A stretch of DNA of 24,804 nt from a virus: IMG/VR virus record IMGVR_UViG_3300047200_000017, positions 1 through 24,804 of that record; one strand, written 5' to 3'. This document shows, in pieces, positions 3 through 18,583 of the stretch. Position 1 is the first letter of the stretch; every line of letters begins with the position of its first letter. The translations under genes and the position numbers were made by a program. The notes beneath the pieces were generated by a model that saw only the letters and a program-made list of their open reading frames with translations, ran no database searches and was not told the origin of the DNA.

Positions 3-266
3 AATGTCAGCGAGGTATTTGCTGGTCAGTTCCGTGAGATGTTTGGTCGCACTAAGTATGCCTATGCCCATACAGGTCATTTGCACCACATAGACGTTAA
101 AGAAAACAACCTAATGATAGTGGAGCAACACCGTACATTAGCACCTGCTGATGCCTATTCTGCTCGTGGTGGATGGCTAACTGGTCGTGATGCTAAAGTC
201 ATAACATATGACAAGCGTTACGGTGAAGTATCTAGGCTTACGATTAATTCAGATATGCTTAAATAA
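3..266 (+). CDS. Metallophosphoesterase-like phage protein, C-terminal part (5' end outside window)
   Basis: The reading frame is open from the window edge to the TAA at 264-266, so only about the last 87 codons are present. An internal Met lies at 39, but the frame continues upstream with plausible protein (Asn-Val-Ser-Glu-Val-Phe-Ala). The key motif is HTGHLHH (codons near 75-95). This is the C-terminal metal-binding GHxH block of calcineurin-like phosphoesterases, and it is followed by a segment reading EQHRTLAPADAYSARGGW. A family of phage proteins with this GHxHH plus (S/Q)xRTLAxxDAYxA pattern is common in podoviruses near replication genes. Its substrate (phosphodiester in DNA or a small nucleotide) is unknown. 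It is the only non-HNH gene on the + strand and probably marks the end of the early module. Family assignment is fairly sure, function is not. Confidence 0.7.
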   Translation, partial: NVSEVFAGQFREMFGRTKYAYAHTGHLHHIDVKENNLMIVEQHRTLAPADAYSARGGWLTGRDAKVITYDKRYGEVSRLTINSDMLK

Positions 267-267
267 A

Positions 268-843
268 ATGACTGTGACAGATACAAGCCATGATAGAAAG
301 TTTGCCATAAGTAATGGCTTAGTAACCTATCTTGGCAAAGTATGTGTACATGGTCATGCTGGAGTTAAATATACCAAAAGTGGTAAGTGTATTGTATGTG
401 CTGCATTGCAATCAAAGTCTGATAGCAAAAAAGAATATGATAAAAACAGGTATATAGATAATATAGATGCTATTAAAGAAAACAGGCTACATTCATATTA
501 TTTAAACAAAGAAAAAGAAAATGCTTACGCTAAACTTTATGCTGACAATAATAAAGACAAGATAAGGCTTATTAAAAGTAACTATAAATTTAAAAGAAGA
601 GCAGTAGAAAAGACTGGTGACTCAACTAAAGATGTTGAATTGTGGTTGAACAAACAACAAAAGATTTGTTACTGGTGTATGGTAGATTGCAATGATAGTT
701 ATCACATTGACCATTATGACCCATTATCAAAAGGTGGAACACATACTATTGATAACTTAGTTATTGCTTGTCCAACTTGTAATCTAACAAAGAATGCAAA
801 AGACCCATACAAATTTGCTTTAACAAAAGGTAAATTGTTCTAA
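268..843 (+). CDS. HNH homing endonuclease (free-standing, zinc-ribbon type)
   Basis: The protein is 191 residues from the ATG at 268. An in-frame ATG at 208 lies inside the preceding gene, so I prefer 268, one base after that gene's TAA. There is no good Shine-Dalgarno sequence before either start. The C-terminal half holds a classic HNH nuclease with its zinc site: Cys134-x2-Cys137, the catalytic His146-x-Asp148-His149, Asn163, then Cys168-x2-Cys171-Asn172 and Lys175. The N-terminus has a second Cys/His cluster (Cys26, His28, His30, Cys41, Cys44) of the CxHGH...GxCxxC type often fused to phage HNH enzymes. The middle is a very Lys/Tyr/Asn-rich linker. Such genes make site-specific breaks and spread by homing, and do not usually serve virion assembly. 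The gene is visibly more AT-rich than the phosphoesterase before it, consistent with acquisition from elsewhere. Confidence 0.9.
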   Translation: MTVTDTSHDRKFAISNGLVTYLGKVCVHGHAGVKYTKSGKCIVCAALQSKSDSKKEYDKNRYIDNIDAIKENRLHSYYLNKEKENAYAKLYADNNKDKIRLIKSNYKFKRRAVEKTGDSTKDVELWLNKQQKICYWCMVDCNDSYHIDHYDPLSKGGTHTIDNLVIACPTCNLTKNAKDPYKFALTKGKLF

Positions 844-8674: not shown

Positions 8675-9064
8675 CTAAATGCTTAATTCCCAATTTCTTG
8701 GTCTAAATCCTAATTGTTTTGCTCTCGTTTCCCATCCACTACGCATAGAAGAAAACGTCACTTTTTTGCAGTTGCCTTGTTTAGCAATGCTCTTGGCAAA
8801 CTCAAGTCCAAAGGATAAATCATCAGGGTTGCTTGAATCTAACCATGCTGCCCAAATGTGCATCTCTACACCGTTAGGCTGTAATACTATAAAACCTTTC
8901 TTTTCTGGCAATATCCACAACATAGAGCGTTGCTCGTAGCAGTCGCAATATATGTCCTCTGCAAGCCATTCTGAATGACCCTTGGCACGAACCTTCTCAA
9001 GACCTTGGCGAACCCACCACCAGCAATGTCTTAGTTCGTTAGGTTGTACGTATGAAAATTCCAT
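8675..9064 (-). CDS. GNAT-like / T7 gp13-like small protein
   Basis: The protein has 129 residues. Its ATG shares one base with the stop of the 102-residue gene (TAATG). The sequence pattern resembles degenerate GNAT acetyltransferase-fold proteins carried in T7-like late operons (gp13 position): an N-terminal helix HCWWWVRQGLEKVRAK, aromatic strands (SMLWILPEKKGFIVLQP, MHIWAAWLD), then a helix and the C-terminal GWETRAKQLGFRPRNWEL, which matches the end of GNAT domains. The usual acetyl-CoA loop (Q/RxxGxG/A) is not evident, so it is probably structural or an assembly factor rather than an active acetyltransferase. It sits directly before the ejection proteins, as gp13 precedes gp14-16 in T7. 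Confidence 0.55.
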   Translation of the reverse strand: MEFSYVQPNELRHCWWWVRQGLEKVRAKGHSEWLAEDIYCDCYEQRSMLWILPEKKGFIVLQPNGVEMHIWAAWLDSSNPDDLSFGLEFAKSIAKQGNCKKVTFSSMRSGWETRAKQLGFRPRNWELSI

Positions 9065-9372
9065 TATGCAATTACCACATAACCGTAAGTTTTATCTGTC
9101 AATACATTTGCTGCATGAGTCAATGTTGCACTACCTTTAGTTCTTGCGCTGACATATAGACCGCCAAATGCTGATGCTGCATTAGCAGTTGTAGGCATAA
9201 ACAATATTAAAGAGTCATAGCCAATACGTTCATCAGTAAGTGTTGTAGTTGTAGAGCCAGCAACAGCTAAAGTAACTGTACCAGTATTGTTACTTTTACC
9301 CTCAACAAGGTTGTTCACTACCTCGGATATTTCACGAGGTGTGCTACCTGATGGGTTAAGTTTACGATACAT
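9064..9372 (-). CDS. Small conserved virion protein
   Basis: The protein has 102 residues and is coupled on both sides by one-base TAATG overlaps (at 9372 upstream and 9064 downstream). Features are a charged N-terminus with STPREISEVVNNLVEGKSNN, then an all-beta Thr/Ala-rich body ending ARTKGSATLTHAANVLTDKTYGYVV. This combination recurs in podoviruses next to tail genes. It probably forms a small beta-sandwich on the virion, perhaps a tail or head decoration. I know of no function, and no enzymatic motif is present. Confidence 0.6.
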   Translation of the reverse strand: MYRKLNPSGSTPREISEVVNNLVEGKSNNTGTVTLAVAGSTTTTLTDERIGYDSLILFMPTTANAASAFGGLYVSARTKGSATLTHAANVLTDKTYGYVVIA

Positions 9373-10802
9373 TATCTAGTACCCTGTGGTGTAACATCAA
9401 TGTCAACTCCAATGGCATTAGACCAACGGTCACCAGTAGGAATTACTGATATGCGATGGTACTTACCACTACTTCTTAATGATACACGATTTTCACTATC
9501 TGCTGCGATATAAGAACCTAATGCTGGTACTGCACTTAAAAGCATTCTAGACGCTATTGCTACGCTCCCAGAGCCATTATCTACTACTGGTCGTGCTAAT
9601 GTAACAACAGATGTAGTTTCGCTTCCTATATCTCCTGTGGTAATTTGTGCAGCAGAATTAGCCCCAGTAAATGTTACTACTTTATCAGACCTTGCCCCAG
9701 CAAATAAGAACTTACCACCAGCCCATAAACCATCATCTAATGATGTAGTCAATGTGTCCATATTACCGTACAAGTCTAAACCTTCTAATGTCATGCCTAC
9801 TGAAGCAGAACTTGCTACATAATCAACGTCTGTTGTTCCATAAGACCATTTTTGTACTTGCCAGTTGTATATAAGCAAAGTATTTTGTGCAAAGTTGTCC
9901 ACAAATTTCCATACAACTATCTTACGAAATGGGTCAATGGTTGATGACATTAAGCTAAGTTTTGATTGATTGACGTTAGCATAAAACCAAGCATCTACCT
10001 TTTGCGTACCAATGGCAGTAATAGTAGAACCATCGCATGAATAAAATCCATCTGCACCTAAAAAGTAAGTCATGTTGCCGTACTGTACGACAGAGTTACC
10101 TTCTACGCAGCCAATGTTACGACTAATGGTATCAAACTGGAAGAATAGTGGTGAGCCAATGTAGGACATACGAACAATAGCTCGGTCTAGTAAGATAAGA
10201 CCAAATTCACCACCAGTCATGCCTGTAATATTTCCACCATCTGCAATTATCTGAAAATCAGATTGTGATGCTCCACCTGGTGTCCAGTTTGCTTCATCAT
10301 TAATATTAGACCATTGAACTTTATTAGCATTACTACCAGCATCTAAGTTAGCAGCCACAACAAAGTCACGTACTACTGTTACATATTTTGCTATTGGTGC
10401 GCTTGCATCTAAATCAGCAAATAATGAACTTGATCCTAGTGTATAGCTTTGTAATTTATTGATATTATTTGCCGCAATTACTGTATCGCCAAATTGAATA
10501 AAGTTCCATTTTACAATGGCAGAATAATTACCTGTTTTAGAAACATTATTCATAGCCAAGGTAGAACCATCTAATTTAAATAATTTAGTAGCACCGCCAG
10601 CAAAAACATTTGTTGTAGAACTAAACTTACCAGCAAATACATTATTAAGTGACTCACTTGCAGCAGCAGAGTAATTTACTGCTAATGGAAATGGGTTATA
10701 TCCTAATGCAGTTGGCACTACATTTTTTGCAATAGATAAGTTTTCAGCAACCCCAGGTAAATCTGGAGTCCATTCTGTAAATGCTATACGTTGAGTAGCC
10801 AT
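9372..10802 (-). CDS. P22 gp10-like packaged-DNA stabilisation / tail hub protein
   Basis: The protein has 476 residues and the ATG directly follows the stop of the fibre gene. The sequence is beta-rich throughout. It starts RIAFTEWTPDLPGVAENLSIAKNVVPTALGY, then has repeated blade-like units (NVFAGGATKLFKLDGSTLAM, VVRDFVVAANL, VQWSNINDEANWTP, GNMTYFLGADGFYSCDGSTI). The VQWSNINDxxxW segment and the 'LGxDGFYxxDG' unit are typical of the phage stabilisation (gp10-like) beta-propeller family. In P22 this protein closes the head-tail channel after packaging. Here it lies after the fibre genes and before the ejection proteins, consistent with tail assembly. The length is close to that of P22 gp10 (about 470). 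Confidence 0.75.
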   Translation of the reverse strand: MATQRIAFTEWTPDLPGVAENLSIAKNVVPTALGYNPFPLAVNYSAAASESLNNVFAGKFSSTTNVFAGGATKLFKLDGSTLAMNNVSKTGNYSAIVKWNFIQFGDTVIAANNINKLQSYTLGSSSLFADLDASAPIAKYVTVVRDFVVAANLDAGSNANKVQWSNINDEANWTPGGASQSDFQIIADGGNITGMTGGEFGLILLDRAIVRMSYIGSPLFFQFDTISRNIGCVEGNSVVQYGNMTYFLGADGFYSCDGSTITAIGTQKVDAWFYANVNQSKLSLMSSTIDPFRKIVVWKFVDNFAQNTLLIYNWQVQKWSYGTTDVDYVASSASVGMTLEGLDLYGNMDTLTTSLDDGLWAGGKFLFAGARSDKVVTFTGANSAAQITTGDIGSETTSVVTLARPVVDNGSGSVAIASRMLLSAVPALGSYIAADSENRVSLRSSGKYHRISVIPTGDRWSNAIGVDIDVTPQGTR

Positions 10803-11576
10803 TTATAATCCCAATGCAATCCAACTAACTGGTGCAGAAATAGTATCACTTCCATTATAAGCTGTTAGTGTAGTTGCTGTTGCAGATAAAAGACCTGAAC
10901 CACCATCTTGCGCTGCTGTACCACCAAATTTTCCACCAACTGCACATAATAATGTTGTAAATGCAATTGGAAATGTTACTGCTACTGAACTATTACCTGA
11001 AATACTGGCAGTTGTTCCCCATTGTAAAATTAAACCACCTGGAAGTTTTTGATATCCATTGGATGTTAAAGATTGATTTGAACCAGTAAAACTTGTTGTA
11101 TAAACACCATTAGTAACTGTGCCTGCATTACCTGATACTGTACCTGTAACATTACCAGTAACATTGCCTGTAACATTGCCTATAAATCCACTTGATGCAG
11201 ATGCAGTAGTAAATACACCAGTTGATGGTGTCGTAGCACCAACAGAACCATTATGTGCGCCAGTAGAGTTTCCTATGACGTTTCCTGTTAAATTTCCAGT
11301 AACATTTCCTGTGACGTTACCAGTAACATTACCAGTAACACCAGCAGTAGCAGTTATTGCACCAGTAGCAGTAGTCGTGCCAGTAACAGATAAGTTACCA
11401 CCTACGGTAAAGCTGTCTGCATCTGTTCCAGTTTGTTGGTCTTTTACTTGAGCCATCAACTCACGAATAGCGTTATTAATACCAGATGGCGCACAACCCT
11501 CAGCAATATCTATGCCACCAATATCGGTGTTATTTGCTGCCGTAGCACTCCACTCACTTATCTTATTCTTAGCCAT
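10803..11576 (-). CDS. Tail fibre with (TGNV)n repeats and a gp53-like C-terminal domain
   Basis: The protein has 257 residues. GGGA of the preceding gene's final codons serves as ribosome site. The N-terminus (ISEWSATAANNTDIGGIDI, then EGCAPSGINNAIRELMAQ) is the common virion-anchoring start of podovirus fibres. The shaft has two four-residue repeat arrays of GNVT type, at about residues 81-103 and 132-147. The C-terminus (about 170-257) contains GYQKLPGGLILQWG, FPIAFT and a closing SWIALGL. These match the gp53-like C-terminal domain of phage tail fibres, which trimerises and contacts the receptor. The role is host-surface binding at the virion tail. Repeat number may differ among relatives. 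Confidence 0.8.
   Translation of the reverse strand: MAKNKISEWSATAANNTDIGGIDIAEGCAPSGINNAIRELMAQVKDQQTGTDADSFTVGGNLSVTGTTTATGAITATAGVTGNVTGNVTGNVTGNLTGNVIGNSTGAHNGSVGATTPSTGVFTTASASSGFIGNVTGNVTGNVTGTVSGNAGTVTNGVYTTSFTGSNQSLTSNGYQKLPGGLILQWGTTASISGNSSVAVTFPIAFTTLLCAVGGKFGGTAAQDGGSGLLSATATTLTAYNGSDTISAPVSWIALGL
11136..11183. repeat. Tandem 12-bp repeats (second GNVT array in fibre gene)
   Basis: In the + strand this reads as successive near-copies of a 12-base unit (CCTGTAACATTG / CCAGTAACATTG), encoding Gly-Asn-Val-Thr on the minus strand at residues ~132-147 of the fibre. Confidence 0.75.
11265..11336. repeat. Tandem 12-bp repeats (first GNVT array in fibre gene)
   Basis: About six 12-base units with synonymous changes encode GNVT, GNLT, GNVI and GNST on the minus strand at residues ~81-104. 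It is separated from the second array by about 80 bases. Confidence 0.75.
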
Positions 11577-11579
11577 AAT

Positions 11580-12353
11580 TTATCCCTTTAAAAGCCATGT
11601 ATTGCTAGTTGCTGGTGTTTCTGTCCATGTATTTGATGTAACTGATGTATCTGTCCAAGTATTACTAGTTACTGGTACTGGTGTCCAAGTATTTTCGCTA
11701 ACAGTTGTGTCTGTCCAAGTATTATCTCCAACAGGAATAGGTGTCCAGTTATCCCCTAATTTTGTACCATTTGCAACTACAGTTACTGTTGCTAATACTT
11801 GACTGTATGCAGAGTAAATTGCATTTGCATAAGCACCTACTAAGGCATAACCATTAATTCCTGCTACTGCGCTATACTCAACACCACCAAGAGCAGTAAC
11901 TACTGCCGTTCCATTTATTGAACCAGTTGATGTTCTAATTCTTAATGCATTACTTGTTACTGTGGCAGTTCCATCAATAGCACCACTTGATGTTCTTATG
12001 CGTATTGAGTCAGATGAGACAGTTGCATTGCCTACTATTATAGCATTTGCGCTATAAGTAACGCTAGAACCGCTAGAAACGCTTGCTAACGCATTAATAC
12101 TTCCAGTTGATGTCCTAGTCCTAATTGCATTAGAACTAACGGTTGTAAGACCATTAATTTGAGCTGCATTTGTTCTTATTGCATAAGCGTTGGCAGTTAC
12201 GTCAGCATTTACTGCAATAACAGCTTGTCTGCTATAAATTGCAACGGCATTTGCTGTAACGGTAGCATTACCATCAATAGCAGCAGAAGCTAATAATACA
12301 TTGCTTACTAATGAGCTAAATGGTAATTGAGAGAATGCTACTATGCCAAACAT
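11580..12353 (-). CDS. Virion repeat protein: 20-residue repeats plus 10-residue Trp repeats
   Basis: The protein has 257 residues. AAGG lies seven bases before the ATG. After a hydrophobic N-terminus (about 1-23), residues 24-183 consist of eight consecutive units of exactly 20 residues with the frame (A/S)xIxGxAxVxSNAxRIRTST, for example 124-143 and 144-163. A degenerate ninth unit may follow. Residues 201-254 then form five units of exactly ten residues, each with a W at the third position, of the pattern NTWTxTxVTS, closed by a final NTW. The 20-residue period with alternating small and hydrophobic residues suggests a beta-solenoid or stacked beta shaft. The Trp repeats may form a tip or a contact surface. 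It sits among fibre genes, so a fibre, appendage or tip role is likely. No named family is recognised with certainty. Confidence 0.75.
   Translation of the reverse strand: MFGIVAFSQLPFSSLVSNVLLASAAIDGNATVTANAVAIYSRQAVIAVNADVTANAYAIRTNAAQINGLTTVSSNAIRTRTSTGSINALASVSSGSSVTYSANAIIVGNATVSSDSIRIRTSSGAIDGTATVTSNALRIRTSTGSINGTAVVTALGGVEYSAVAGINGYALVGAYANAIYSAYSQVLATVTVVANGTKLGDNWTPIPVGDNTWTDTTVSENTWTPVPVTSNTWTDTSVTSNTWTETPATSNTWLLKG
11600..11751. repeat. Tandem 30-bp repeats encoding 10-residue Trp units
   Basis: The plus strand shows the motif GTCCA(T/A)GTATT recurring about every 30 bases, the reverse complement of AATACNTGGAC (Asn-Thr-Trp-Thr). It covers residues ~201-251 of the repeat protein. 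Confidence 0.75.
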
Positions 12354-12355
12354 AA

Positions 12356-12577
12356 CTAAGCCTTAATTGCTTTTAAATCATCTAATGTTTCTAATGTATC
12401 TACTTGTTTAGTAATATCACGTAAGCGTTGTTTTTCTGCAACAATAGCTGTTGTATCTGCGCCACTTTCTAATGCACGTTGAAATGCGATATCTTGTTCT
12501 TGCATTAATGGTATACGTTCTTGACGCAAGCGTTCTTTAGTAATTACTTTAGCTTTGTCTATATTAATAGTAATCAT
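12356..12577 (-). CDS. Small helical fibre-associated protein (tail-fibre-assembly-like)
   Basis: The protein has 73 residues and its start overlaps the previous stop by four bases (ATGA). The sequence begins MITINIDKAKVITKERLRQE, runs through DIAFQRALESG and VAEKQRLRDITKQ, and ends TLETLDDLKAIKA. The arrangement 'DKAxxIxxxRLRxxR...LxxxDxxFxxAxExG...xKQxLRD' is the C-terminal half of a widespread phage protein found beside fibre genes. It is often fused to the kind of domain encoded by the gene just upstream. The family is usually proposed to help fold or assemble fibres. It is helical and charged, with no membrane segment. Confidence 0.65.
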   Translation of the reverse strand: MITINIDKAKVITKERLRQERIPLMQEQDIAFQRALESGADTTAIVAEKQRLRDITKQVDTLETLDDLKAIKA

Positions 12578-12839: not shown

Positions 12840-14720
12840 TTACCTTATAATAATAACGCAAGTATTGCTACAAGTTGTACCTGCACCACCACTAGGAAAC
12901 CATGTTTGTACGTTTGTAATACTACCTGTACTAAATACTGAACTTGTATTTAATGCAACTATATATTTTGCATCTGCTGTTTGCGATGTAGTTGTACCTA
13001 CTATTGAAAAGTTAGCATCTGGCATGGCTGTTGAAAAGTTAATAGTAGCAGCCGATGTTGATGTTTTAGAAATGCTTGAAATATTCCCACTAGCATTAAC
13101 TGTTGCTGCCCCAATTGCACCATCCATCTGATACTTAGCCCAAGCTCTAGTTGCATAAGAAGGTGCAGACCCTGAAGCTGTTGACAAGGCGGTAGCTGTT
13201 GCAGAATTACCTGTGCAAGAACCTGAACTTCCTGTTGTATTTTGATTAAGCGTTGGAAATGTACAGTTAGTTAGTGTACCACTTGTTGGTGTACCTAAAA
13301 TTGGTGTTACTAGCGTAGGACTTGTATTAAATACTAATAATCCAGTTCCTGTTTCATCTGACATAGCAGATAATAAATTGGCACTTGATGGTGTACCTAA
13401 AAATGTTGCAACACCTGTACCTAGACCTGATACACCAGTAGAAATAGGCAATCCAGTACATGAAGTTAACGTACCGCTTGATGGTGTCCCTAATACTGGA
13501 GTAACTAGAGTTGGACTAGTGGAAAGAACAGTATTTCCTGACCCAGTAGATGTAGTGACTCCTGTACCGCCATTAGCAACGGCTAATGTTCCTGAAATAT
13601 GGGTAGTTAAACCAACTTTACCATAGCTAGGAGCTACACCGACACCGCCTGAAATAAGCGCATTACCTGTAGCAACATCCGCTAATTTAGATAAAGCAGT
13701 AGTAGTTGATGCATAAACTAAGTCACCAACGGCATAGGATGTTTGCCCTGTCCCGCCTTGTGTTGCTGGAATTGTGTAGCCTGTATCAACAACACGATAC
13801 CAAGGCATTCCTGTAGTACCAAGAGTGTCTGTAGACTTAAAGTCATTGTCGTATACTAGACCGCCATTTACAGTACCAGCGTCTACGTTAACGTGCGCCC
13901 CTGCAATTTCTCCAGCAGTATCTGAATCAGTAGCACGAACCCATGTTGTAGTAGTTAACCCTGTGTATATACCATTTTGTGCTGGAGCTGCTTGGTCTTT
14001 AACTAATACACGAGTAGCAGCAGATAACGTTACACCATCAATAGTAGTTTGAGCTGTGTTTATTGTTAGTGCTGCCGTAGTAGCACAGTCAACAGCTTTC
14101 TTAACCCAAGAACCTGGTAAGTTTTCTAATGTAAGTGTTGCCCATGTTGGAGCTGCTGCACCATTTGATACAATCGCTTGCCCTGCTGTACCTGCTGCCG
14201 TATAAGCATGAGCAGTACCAGTTCCGTAACCTACACCACCATTGGTAGCAGTAGCAGTTGAGTTTGTCCCACCATTGGCTATTGGTAGAGTTCCTGTCAC
14301 ACCTGTGGTAAGTGGTAAACCAGTACATGATGTCAAAGTACCACTTGCAGGAGTTCCTAATGTTGGTGTAGTTAAAGCAGGGCTTGTTAAGGTTTTATTA
14401 GTTAAAGTTTGTACACCATCTATAGTAACTGCTTTGTCAGCAGGGTAAGTAACAAATACTGTTTTTACCCCAGCACCAAATGATATGGCAGTACCGGTAG
14501 ATGATGATAAAATTGTGTCCCTAGATAAAGTTCCAGCAGCAACCGTACCAATGCCAACTTCCCAATTTACACCATCTGTAATTGAATAATAAGTTGTATT
14601 GGTATTGCCTATTGCAGAGGAAAACGTCTGATAACCAGATACAGCACCGCTAAGTGTTAGCGTACCAGTACCTGTGGTGGACGTTGTTTCCTGTACCCTA
14701 TCCTTGACTATAAGAGCCAT
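12840..14720 (-). CDS. Large tail fibre / appendage protein
   Basis: The protein has 626 residues, with AGGA upstream in the stop region of the gp80-like gene. The N-terminal ~100 residues (ALIVKDRVQETTSTTGTGTL, SGYQTFSSAIG, SRDTILSSS) form the conserved virion-attachment start seen in many phage fibres. Three copies of a Thr/Gly/Pro unit, (S)PxLxTPxLGTPxSGTLTS, occur at about 113-136, 402-425 and 467-489, interleaved with PIANGGTxxT units. Between them lies an inserted module (about 204-292) with VKKAVDCATTAALT, RVLVKDQAAPAQNGIY and VRATDSDTAGE, a known fold found in fibre shafts. The C-terminus (about 520-626) is a separate domain with two Cys residues. It is likely a trimeric host-recognition appendage. 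Little can be said about the receptor. Confidence 0.8.
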   Translation of the reverse strand: MALIVKDRVQETTSTTGTGTLTLSGAVSGYQTFSSAIGNTNTTYYSITDGVNWEVGIGTVAAGTLSRDTILSSSTGTAISFGAGVKTVFVTYPADKAVTIDGVQTLTNKTLTSPALTTPTLGTPASGTLTSCTGLPLTTGVTGTLPIANGGTNSTATATNGGVGYGTGTAHAYTAAGTAGQAIVSNGAAAPTWATLTLENLPGSWVKKAVDCATTAALTINTAQTTIDGVTLSAATRVLVKDQAAPAQNGIYTGLTTTTWVRATDSDTAGEIAGAHVNVDAGTVNGGLVYDNDFKSTDTLGTTGMPWYRVVDTGYTIPATQGGTGQTSYAVGDLVYASTTTALSKLADVATGNALISGGVGVAPSYGKVGLTTHISGTLAVANGGTGVTTSTGSGNTVLSTSPTLVTPVLGTPSSGTLTSCTGLPISTGVSGLGTGVATFLGTPSSANLLSAMSDETGTGLLVFNTSPTLVTPILGTPTSGTLTNCTFPTLNQNTTGSSGSCTGNSATATALSTASGSAPSYATRAWAKYQMDGAIGAATVNASGNISSISKTSTSAATINFSTAMPDANFSIVGTTTSQTADAKYIVALNTSSVFSTGSITNVQTWFPSGGAGTTCSNTCVIIIR

Positions 14721-14728
14721 GCTTTATC

Positions 14729-15115
14729 CTAAGCTAATGTAACTGAAAGGCTGCCTGAAGCTATCTTAAATATATCACCTGTATCAATTGTTTTAGCTGC
14801 GTCTAGTGGAGTATGGTACAAAAGATTGCCAGCCGTTGATGCGTCATATAGACCAATCCAACCAACTGTACCCCATGATGCCGTAGCTTGTGGGAATGTA
14901 CAGTCTGCGTTAGATAAGCTAACACCGTTAGATGGCGCAGCAAATGTTACTGCAGTACGTGCGTAAGAGCCACCTGATACTTGAGTACCTGTACCAGCAT
15001 CTGTAGGATCTGTAGTAAATAAAGCCACATAAATAGTTGTTGGTGCTGTATAGGCTGTAGCTCGTAGCGTTACATTGATTAGAGCATTCTCTAAGTAATT
15101 GGACATTTCTGACAT
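14729..15115 (-). CDS. gp80-like head-tail / tail-associated protein
   Basis: The protein has 128 residues. AAGGA lies seven bases before the ATG at 15115. The pattern SNYLENALINVTLRATAYTA, then TIYVALFTTDPTDAGTGT, VSGGSYARTAVTF, and WGTVGWIGLYDA is a strongly conserved phage family, annotated variously as gp80-like or 'tail fibre protein'. It is a small beta-sandwich. It follows the adaptor and precedes the large fibre, which fits a connector or collar role linking neck and appendages. Residue count and motifs are complete. Confidence 0.75.
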   Translation of the reverse strand: MSEMSNYLENALINVTLRATAYTAPTTIYVALFTTDPTDAGTGTQVSGGSYARTAVTFAAPSNGVSLSNADCTFPQATASWGTVGWIGLYDASTAGNLLYHTPLDAAKTIDTGDIFKIASGSLSVTLA

Positions 15116-15125
15116 AATAATTCCT

Positions 15126-15746
15126 TTATCGTGTTGCTATTGAGATTGAAATTGGTGACCCAGCATACTCACCTTGGTCATCTGATACAGTTAATGCATT
15201 TACACCACGGTCATACAATGTAGCCCAAGTCTGCAATCTTGCATCATTCATAAGATAAGGTTCTGCCTCACCCAAAGAACCATAAAGTAATAAGTCAGGA
15301 CAATTAGCCATAAATGCATTAGATGAATTAGTGTTGCTTAAAAATGTTGGTGCAGCATAATATAAAAGATTAATTGTATAGTTGCTATCAGGTACTGGAG
15401 CTAGTTGAAACTCTTGCGCTAATACCGTGTATTGTTTTGGTAGACCAGAGTCAGTAGTGCGAGCATTACGAAACAATGCGCTAGGTGATTGATATTCTAA
15501 TGTTGTTGCTGGGTTGGTTGCTATGTGTAGGTCACGCATCTGTAAGAAGTCTGATGGCAGCTCTACCGTAGAATCACCTGCTACTGCCGTAGTCGTTACT
15601 ACCTTTAGCATTTGACGTATGCGTAATTCTCTGCGTAATCGTGTTTCAGCAAGCCTAATGAAATCAGGAATCATTGCCGTTAAGTCACTACGAGCTAGGT
15701 AACTGGCAATCGTAGTCTGTAAGTCAGAGTAATTTGTCAATGCCAT
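15126..15746 (-). CDS. Phage adaptor (head-tail connector) protein
   Basis: The protein has 206 residues. The ATG shares one base with the stop of the previous gene (TAATG). The N-terminus (NYSDLQTTIASYLARSDLTA, then IPDFIRLAETRLRREL) and the central strand-turn VELPSDFLQMRDLHI match the adaptor family of SU10-like and related podoviruses. These proteins sit under the portal ring and bridge it to the tail. Near the end, EAEPYLMNDARLQTWATLYDRGV is the other conserved helical block. Position, two genes after the capsid protein, fits. Confidence 0.8.
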   Translation of the reverse strand: MALTNYSDLQTTIASYLARSDLTAMIPDFIRLAETRLRRELRIRQMLKVVTTTAVAGDSTVELPSDFLQMRDLHIATNPATTLEYQSPSALFRNARTTDSGLPKQYTVLAQEFQLAPVPDSNYTINLLYYAAPTFLSNTNSSNAFMANCPDLLLYGSLGEAEPYLMNDARLQTWATLYDRGVNALTVSDDQGEYAGSPISISIATR

Positions 15747-18094: not shown

Positions 18095-18583
18095 TTATTG
18101 ATGCCTAACAAAATTTCCGTGATATTTATTTCTTGCCTCTGTTGCAACTAAATCAGCAAATTCAATATCATCAAAATAACCAATTGTTTCTAATTTCTTA
18201 TTAATGCTTAATGATACTTGCCATTTGTTTCTTACTTTATTCCAATAAACATTTTTAATACCAGTAGTATTATCTGTTCTTAGTTTAGAGTTAAAACTAT
18301 TTTGTTCATTTGTTGCTAACCGCAAATTGCTAATTCTATTGTCATTGGTAATTCTATTAGCATGGTCTAACTTACCATTTGGGAATTCCCCATACATATA
18401 AAGCCAAGCTAAGCGATGCGCCCTATAATCTTTTTTATTCAATCTAATTCTAATGTAGTTGTCTTTATCAAAACTTCCAGCAGCACATCCAGCTTTTACT
18501 TTTCCATGTGATACTTTCCAAGTAAAAATACCTATATCTGCATCATAATCTAATCGTTCTTTTAATTCTGCTTGTGTAATCAT
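18095..18583 (-). CDS. Free-standing homing endonuclease, HNH plus AP2 DNA-binding domain
   Basis: The protein has 162 residues. AAGGG lies eight bases before the ATG at 18583. The N-terminal part has the helix-turn element typical of phage HNH_3 nucleases (LKERLDYDADIGIFTWK), then YRAHRLAWLYMYGEFP (His56), KLDHANRITNDNRISNLRLA (catalytic Asp73-His74 plus Asn residues). Residues ~104-158 form an AP2-like DNA-binding domain (TTGIKNVYWNKVRNKWQVSL, IGYFDDIEFADLVATEARNK). All core residues seem intact, so the enzyme is probably active. It lies between the 76-residue gene and the scaffold in the capsid operon, is clearly more AT-rich than its neighbours, and is bracketed by direct repeats. It serves its own spread, not virion building. 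Confidence 0.93.
   Translation of the reverse strand: MITQAELKERLDYDADIGIFTWKVSHGKVKAGCAAGSFDKDNYIRIRLNKKDYRAHRLAWLYMYGEFPNGKLDHANRITNDNRISNLRLATNEQNSFNSKLRTDNTTGIKNVYWNKVRNKWQVSLSINKKLETIGYFDDIEFADLVATEARNKYHGNFVRHQ

Follow-up and report, generated by a model that had tools for sequence, protein, structure and literature searches.

A tail-fibre-region protein of 20-residue repeats, inherited together with gp80, as a candidate spine of a GP4 fibre I-type accessory tail fibre

The window, that is, the whole stretch of DNA analyzed here, is a 24.8-kb virus record with genes for terminase, portal, scaffold, capsid and tail proteins and for internal-protein-like products on the minus strand. The gene for the repeat protein P0001 lies within its tail-fibre gene block (Table 1), in agreement with the sequence-only reading, which had placed it among fibre genes. 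The tail adaptor and a homologue of gp80 from fibre I of podophage GP4 (Zheng et al. 2023, doi 10.1016/j.jmb.2023.168258) are encoded upstream of the repeat gene, and a Gp53-like fibre and the nozzle downstream. PDB entry 8jou, to which the gp80 homologue was matched, contains ten gp80 chains. In relatives the repeat gene is always found within the stretch from adaptor/gp80 to nozzle, and in ~40 loci it is the sole recognized gene between gp80 and nozzle.

Table 1. Coordinates of P0001, its parts and the neighbouring tail genes in the window.
Feature	Position	Strand	Remarks
P0001 repeat-protein gene	11580..12353	minus	257 aa; >200 related loci
N-terminal module, residues 1-23 (MFGIxAFSQxPFSSL)	12285..12353	minus	
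Shaft, nine 20-residue units, residues 24-203	11745..12284	minus	
Trp tail, residues 204-257 (Trp 213, 223, 233, 243, 253)	11583..11744	minus	
Nozzle / stabilization protein	9372..10802	minus	phrog_3287; PDB 8zkm/8zkk nozzle
Collar-type tail fibre, Gp53-like C-terminal domain	10803..11576	minus	PF21882
Small protein, weak tail-fibre-assembly similarity	12356..12577	minus	phrog_20196; phrog_4912 E=0.0027
Large tail fibre, 626 aa, diverging fast	12840..14720	minus	
GP4 fibre-I gp80 homologue (PF23140)	14729..15115	minus	PF23140 E=1.3e-49; PDB 8jou_a E=1.4e-12
Tail adaptor (SU10_adaptor PF24175)	15126..15746	minus	E=3e-35

Residues 24-183 of P0001 had been described as eight units of 20 residues without insertions or deletions; this was confirmed, and the register extends through a ninth unit (residues 184-203). 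Within residues 1-200, identity at a period of 20 amounts to 0.333, compared with 0.19 for the best of 2000 shuffles with any period tested, and the nine units share on average 6.6 of 20 residues, against 2.06 (maximum 3.08) in shuffled sequences. A chance origin of the repeats is ruled out by these comparisons. The units share 33% protein identity and 45% DNA identity with each other, so that the term exact repeats holds for their strict spacing and not for their sequences, which are alike in pattern only. Six tryptophans spaced exactly ten residues apart are found at positions 203, 213, 223, 233, 243 and 253. Trp203 forms the end of shaft unit nine. The Trp tail keeps the 20-residue register of the shaft, and within the tail period 20 scores 0.595 and period 10 scores 0.532. 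The earlier description of five Trp units, each centred on Asn-Thr-Trp-Thr, is true for four of the six tryptophans, while the first (D-N-W-T-P) and the last (N-T-W-L-L) deviate.

Homologues of P0001 were identified in phage Venkman (gp51), in MW202481 and MW202462, more weakly in phiM5 (gp18), and in more than 200 IMG/VR loci. The four named homologues occupy the same gene position as P0001 and have a Trp tail, but they differ from it in unit number and N-terminal module. Those of MW202481 and MW202462 are annotated as 'serine-rich adhesin', and the record names are uninformative. No relatives were found in the genome-contig collection, which thus gave no sign of prophages at the sensitivity of the scan. 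In total, family ORFs were recovered from 233 loci, corresponding to 175 distinct proteins and 114 representatives. Protein lengths increase in steps of ~20 residues (155, 177, 197, 217, 238, 257, 276, 295 and 320), and among pairs with at least 50% identity a gap of 20 residues is the most common (605 cases), and additional peaks are formed by gaps of 40, 60 and 80; gaps of one residue are second in frequency (474). Gains and losses in whole units of 60 or 30 nt had been predicted. The closest unequal-length pairs (97.5, 96.0, 93.6 and 89.8% DNA identity) differ by exactly 60 nt, as foreseen, whereas a difference of 30 nt occurs in none of the 25 closest unequal-length DNA pairs, a few others of which differ by 3 nt. 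The regular spacing anticipated for homologues is likewise kept by most of them, with a few irregularities of one or two residues; apart from these exceptions, the family has a constant coil length without indels, as beta-solenoid proteins do.

In the last 90 residues of the relatives, Trp spacing equals 10 in 714 of ~760 cases, and the longest chain of tryptophans spaced in this way has two, four or six members in 111 of the 114 representatives. Counted from the first Trp, the phase of the shaft is constant in 106 sequences, with Ala at position 1, Ile at 3, Ala at 7, Val at 9, Ala at 11, Gly/Ala at 13 and Ile/Val at 16. Because Trp numbers are even and the register is common with the shaft, the tail unit comprises 20 residues with two tryptophans, and the tail is thus a variant of the shaft module. 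The proposal of a separate 10-residue Trp unit was therefore rejected: shaft and tail share one phase, the tryptophans are paired in the same 111 of 114 representatives, and relatives vary by 20 residues, i.e. by two tryptophans. When a tree was built from the shafts, parsimony required 20 or more changes in the number of tryptophans; since repeats yield unreliable trees, we accept only that this number changed in several independent events. The N-terminal module swaps between lineages, with AFSQxPFSSL, PPWTLDSLDNL (PPWTLDSLDNL...LSLDS) and YGxxxYG types, and the AFSQxPFSSL type is similar to the Lessievirus N-terminus LNETPING. A natural fusion is seen in L082:983-4564, a 1193-aa fibre whose C-terminal end consists of these 20-residue repeats followed by the Trp tail.

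Conservation was measured as median identity to the window and compared within the same genomes. The capsid protein (90%), adaptor (89%), gp80 (89%) and nozzle (85%) are followed by P0001 (66%), the Gp53-like fibre (52%) and the large fibre (41%). The Gp53-like fibre shows the usual receptor-binding pattern, with 92% identity at the N-terminus and 26% at the C-terminus, and is likely the host-range fibre. It also contains four-residue VTGN repeats, and 12-bp tandem arrays are present at 11126-11340. P0001 shows the opposite pattern: conservation is 80-86% in the final Trp blocks against 66% overall, making the C-terminus one of its best-conserved parts, and one shaft unit reaches 90%. Because of the conserved Trp blocks, a classical receptor-binding fibre with a variable tip was rejected, and it is improbable that host range is determined mainly by P0001.

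The coupling between the repeat gene and gp80 was analyzed in 53 intervals between adaptor and nozzle, which were selected solely by their nozzle gene and scored for gp80 (by HMM) and for an ORF with 20-residue repeats. Both genes were present in 37 intervals and neither in 15, while one had the repeat gene only and none had gp80 only (Fisher 2.6e-12, a nominal p value as the loci are related). MW202710, HTVC106P, Microcystis phage Mae-JY35 and RHph_Y1_10 have neither gp80 nor the repeat gene. Many intervals of ~1.1-1.5 kb contain just the gp80 and repeat pair. The single exception is L433, where a 20-residue-repeat ORF is present and gp80 was undetected in the interval. In a second, independent test, loci were drawn by gp80, and ORFs with a period of 18-22 and z>4 were scored as periodic. 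Of the distinct ORFs directly 3' of gp80, 44 of 98 were periodic (43 with a period of exactly 20), compared with 3 of 234 upstream control ORFs. The remaining 54 were non-periodic; in the loci checked among these, the repeat gene is located a few genes later, as in the window. The periodic ORFs include those of the Lessievirus BcepIL02 (gp56), of phage C72C1, of DSL-LC06 and of mycobacteriophage Faith1 (gp24), and 20-residue repeats thus recur after gp80 in unrelated phages. The gp80 homologue is a constant companion of the repeat gene.

GP4 fibre I reportedly consists of gp80 dimers joined by an elongated rope protein. The gp80 of 8JOU is described as a dimer in a fibril joining an adhesin to the tail collar (PMC13243795), and the 15-fold collar of GP4 was confirmed by the authors of the DEV study (PMC10925440). 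The gp80 of GP4 is homologous to that of the window and located at the same operon position, where the repeat gene is coupled to gp80; the two systems differ in that no PDB chain matches P0001 or its Lessievirus counterparts by sequence, and in that P0001 ends in a Trp tail, which the Lessievirus partners do not have. Searches of the PDB for a rope-like chain with P0001, the family profile and a Lessievirus profile gave no sequence match, and the rope in the 8jou entry may carry no usable sequence. In BcepIL02, gp80 matches 8jou_a with E=2e-48. BcepIL02 gp56 and JC1 gp54, encoded directly after the gp80 homologue, show a 20-residue periodicity (z 7.9) and a short-period C-terminal tail; no significant full-length similarity to P0001 was found, and the tail is charged, with an E/R repeat of ~9 residues, unlike that of P0001. 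Such a C-terminal 9-residue E/R-type repeat replaces the Trp tail in the Lessievirus and mycobacteriophage examples. The two-part layout, for which the sequence-only reading had named no characterized parallel, is therefore shared by these distant gp80-linked proteins, with the same 20-residue shaft followed by a 9-residue-repeat tail. A charged 9-residue-repeat end (ExRxIxVPx) and no Trp tail are seen in the post-gp80 proteins L257:4428-5285, L346:4096-5106, L259:4361-6649 and L368:4408-4920.

A similar arrangement is reported for LSH1, where gp34-gp36 form a module treated as virion proteins and found by mass spectrometry; gp35 matches 8JOU, while the C-terminal stretch of gp34 is badly predicted and was left unexplained by the authors (PMC13243795). 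Alishewanella phage Slicko01 was named as a relative in the same study. We predicted before inspection that the region of its giant protein WGH49683 (L374:6570-11001) equivalent to the gp34 C-terminus would have a 20-residue periodicity, and this was observed with z 5-12. The ORF beside it is weakly gp80-like (E=8.5e-4, under the family cut-off). As in the window, a gp80-like protein is thus found next to one with a 20-residue-repeat stretch, but in LSH1 and Slicko01, a myovirus or siphovirus setting, the repeats are fused to a beta-helix adhesin and no Trp tail is present. The Slicko01 periodicity is a candidate answer to the question posed for LSH1 gp34.

Against Pfam, P0001 gave nothing over cut-off, including lectin and CBM families, and an adenovirus-type fibre shaft (PF00608) was rejected at 11.3 bits against a curated cut-off of 30. 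In PHROGs it weakly matched phrog_31951, of unknown function, and a PDB sequence search was without significant match. One alternative to be weighed takes up the solenoid idea of the sequence-only reading: P0001 would fold by itself, as monomer or trimer, each 20-residue unit making one turn of a beta-solenoid or beta-fibre, and gp80 would be a base adaptor only. The strict period with alternating small and hydrophobic residues is consistent with such a fold, as are marginal matches of the family profile to the adhesin-like PDB entries 4opw and 3ljy (E 0.002-0.006). AlphaFold2 monomer models built from 80 and 21 sequences contain short strands recurring every 20 residues, but their mean pLDDT is 54.9 and 50.8, and the Trp tail is mostly below 50 and disordered. 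AlphaFold2 is known to yield confident but unrealistic beta-solenoids for repeats (PMC11795689), and given also the low pLDDT (51-55) the models decide nothing on the solenoid. Foldseek with these poor models returned no PDB match at E<0.5; many left-handed and other beta-helices were among the insignificant matches, and BFVD returned family members only. Self-folding alone predicts no joint loss or gain with gp80. We consider it possible, though rather unlikely.

The evenly spaced C-terminal tryptophans and the surrounding fibre genes could also suggest a receptor-binding fibre in which the Trp tail forms an aromatic ladder binding surface polysaccharide. This appears improbable when the well-conserved C-terminus of P0001 is compared with the 26% identity in the neighbouring fibre; the distant gp80-linked partners have a charged tail instead, and a lectin or CBM match is lacking in Pfam. 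Proteome data bear on a third alternative, in which P0001 is no part of the virion and serves tail-fibre assembly as a factor or scaffold. The P0001 homologue phiM5 gp18 was not reported in the phiM5 particle proteome, although gp80 was, and the same applies to gp54 and gp80 in the JC1 particle proteome (PMC9144972). Usable tryptic peptides are few for phiM5 gp18 and P0001, while ~10 are expected for JC1 gp54; scarce peptides may thus explain the absence in phiM5, but not in JC1. Low copy number together with few peptides could account for such absences. In addition, LSH1 gp34-36 are treated as virion proteins detected by mass spectrometry (PMC13243795), with a 20-residue stretch in the gp34-like protein of Slicko01, and fusions of the repeat with fibre domains exist (L082, Faith1 gp24). 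A non-virion role is the least probable of these readings, and P0001 is presumably a virion protein.

We consider it somewhat probable that P0001 is the spine, or 'rope', of a GP4 fibre I-type accessory tail fibre built with the gp80-family protein of the window. This reading is based on the gp80 homologue in the window, the co-occurrence of the two genes, the post-gp80 periodicity and the Slicko01 match, as well as on the whole-unit indels, the even, in-register tryptophans and the conserved C-terminus; the poor monomer models, compatible with a chain that needs a partner in order to fold, were also counted in its favour. Dimers of the gp80 family would assemble on P0001 into a chain-like fibre. 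Each 20-residue unit would be one structural module, most likely beta-rich and bound or covered by gp80 subunits, and the number of units would determine how long the fibre is, each unit adding 20 residues (60 nt). The tail with its Trp pairs would prolong the register and form a conserved end, by which the fibre is docked to the tail or capped. The register, whole-unit indels, Trp pairing, gene position and co-inheritance with gp80 are established; the modularity is real, and P0001 is placed functionally by gene coupling. The contact with gp80, the presence in the virion, the setting of length and the function of the Trp tail are inferred. The lack of a similar PDB chain, the proteome absences in phiM5 and JC1, L433 without gp80 and the 54 of 98 non-periodic ORFs count against the spine.

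More tentatively, and with rather less than even confidence, the spine may represent a two-gene fibre system common to podo-, sipho- and myoviruses that has gone unrecognized, in which the chain of 20-residue repeats is a molecular ruler counting gp80 subunits and has exchangeable ends (a paired-Trp tail, a charged tail of 9-residue repeats or an adhesin fused to it). If true, this would account for the region of LSH1 gp34 that is badly predicted. The gp80 fibre structure is known (8jou), while the partner chain has not been recognized from sequence in most phages, where its annotations range from hypothetical to 'serine-rich adhesin' and 'ubiquitin ligase'; gp80 together with an ORF of 20-residue period provides a signature for it. 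The ruler hypothesis can be tested by comparing units with gp80 copies, and if unit number sets length, nature already provides length mutants in the form of the 60-nt indels.

Three further ORFs of the window may be mentioned. ORF 8675-9064, near the nozzle, is acetyltransferase-like; its relatives carry an acetyltransferase annotation and are 97% identical, exceeding the conservation of the capsid protein. ORFs 208-843 (+) and 18095-18583 (-) have, by eye only, the look of HNH endonucleases, and one of the two adjoins structural genes.
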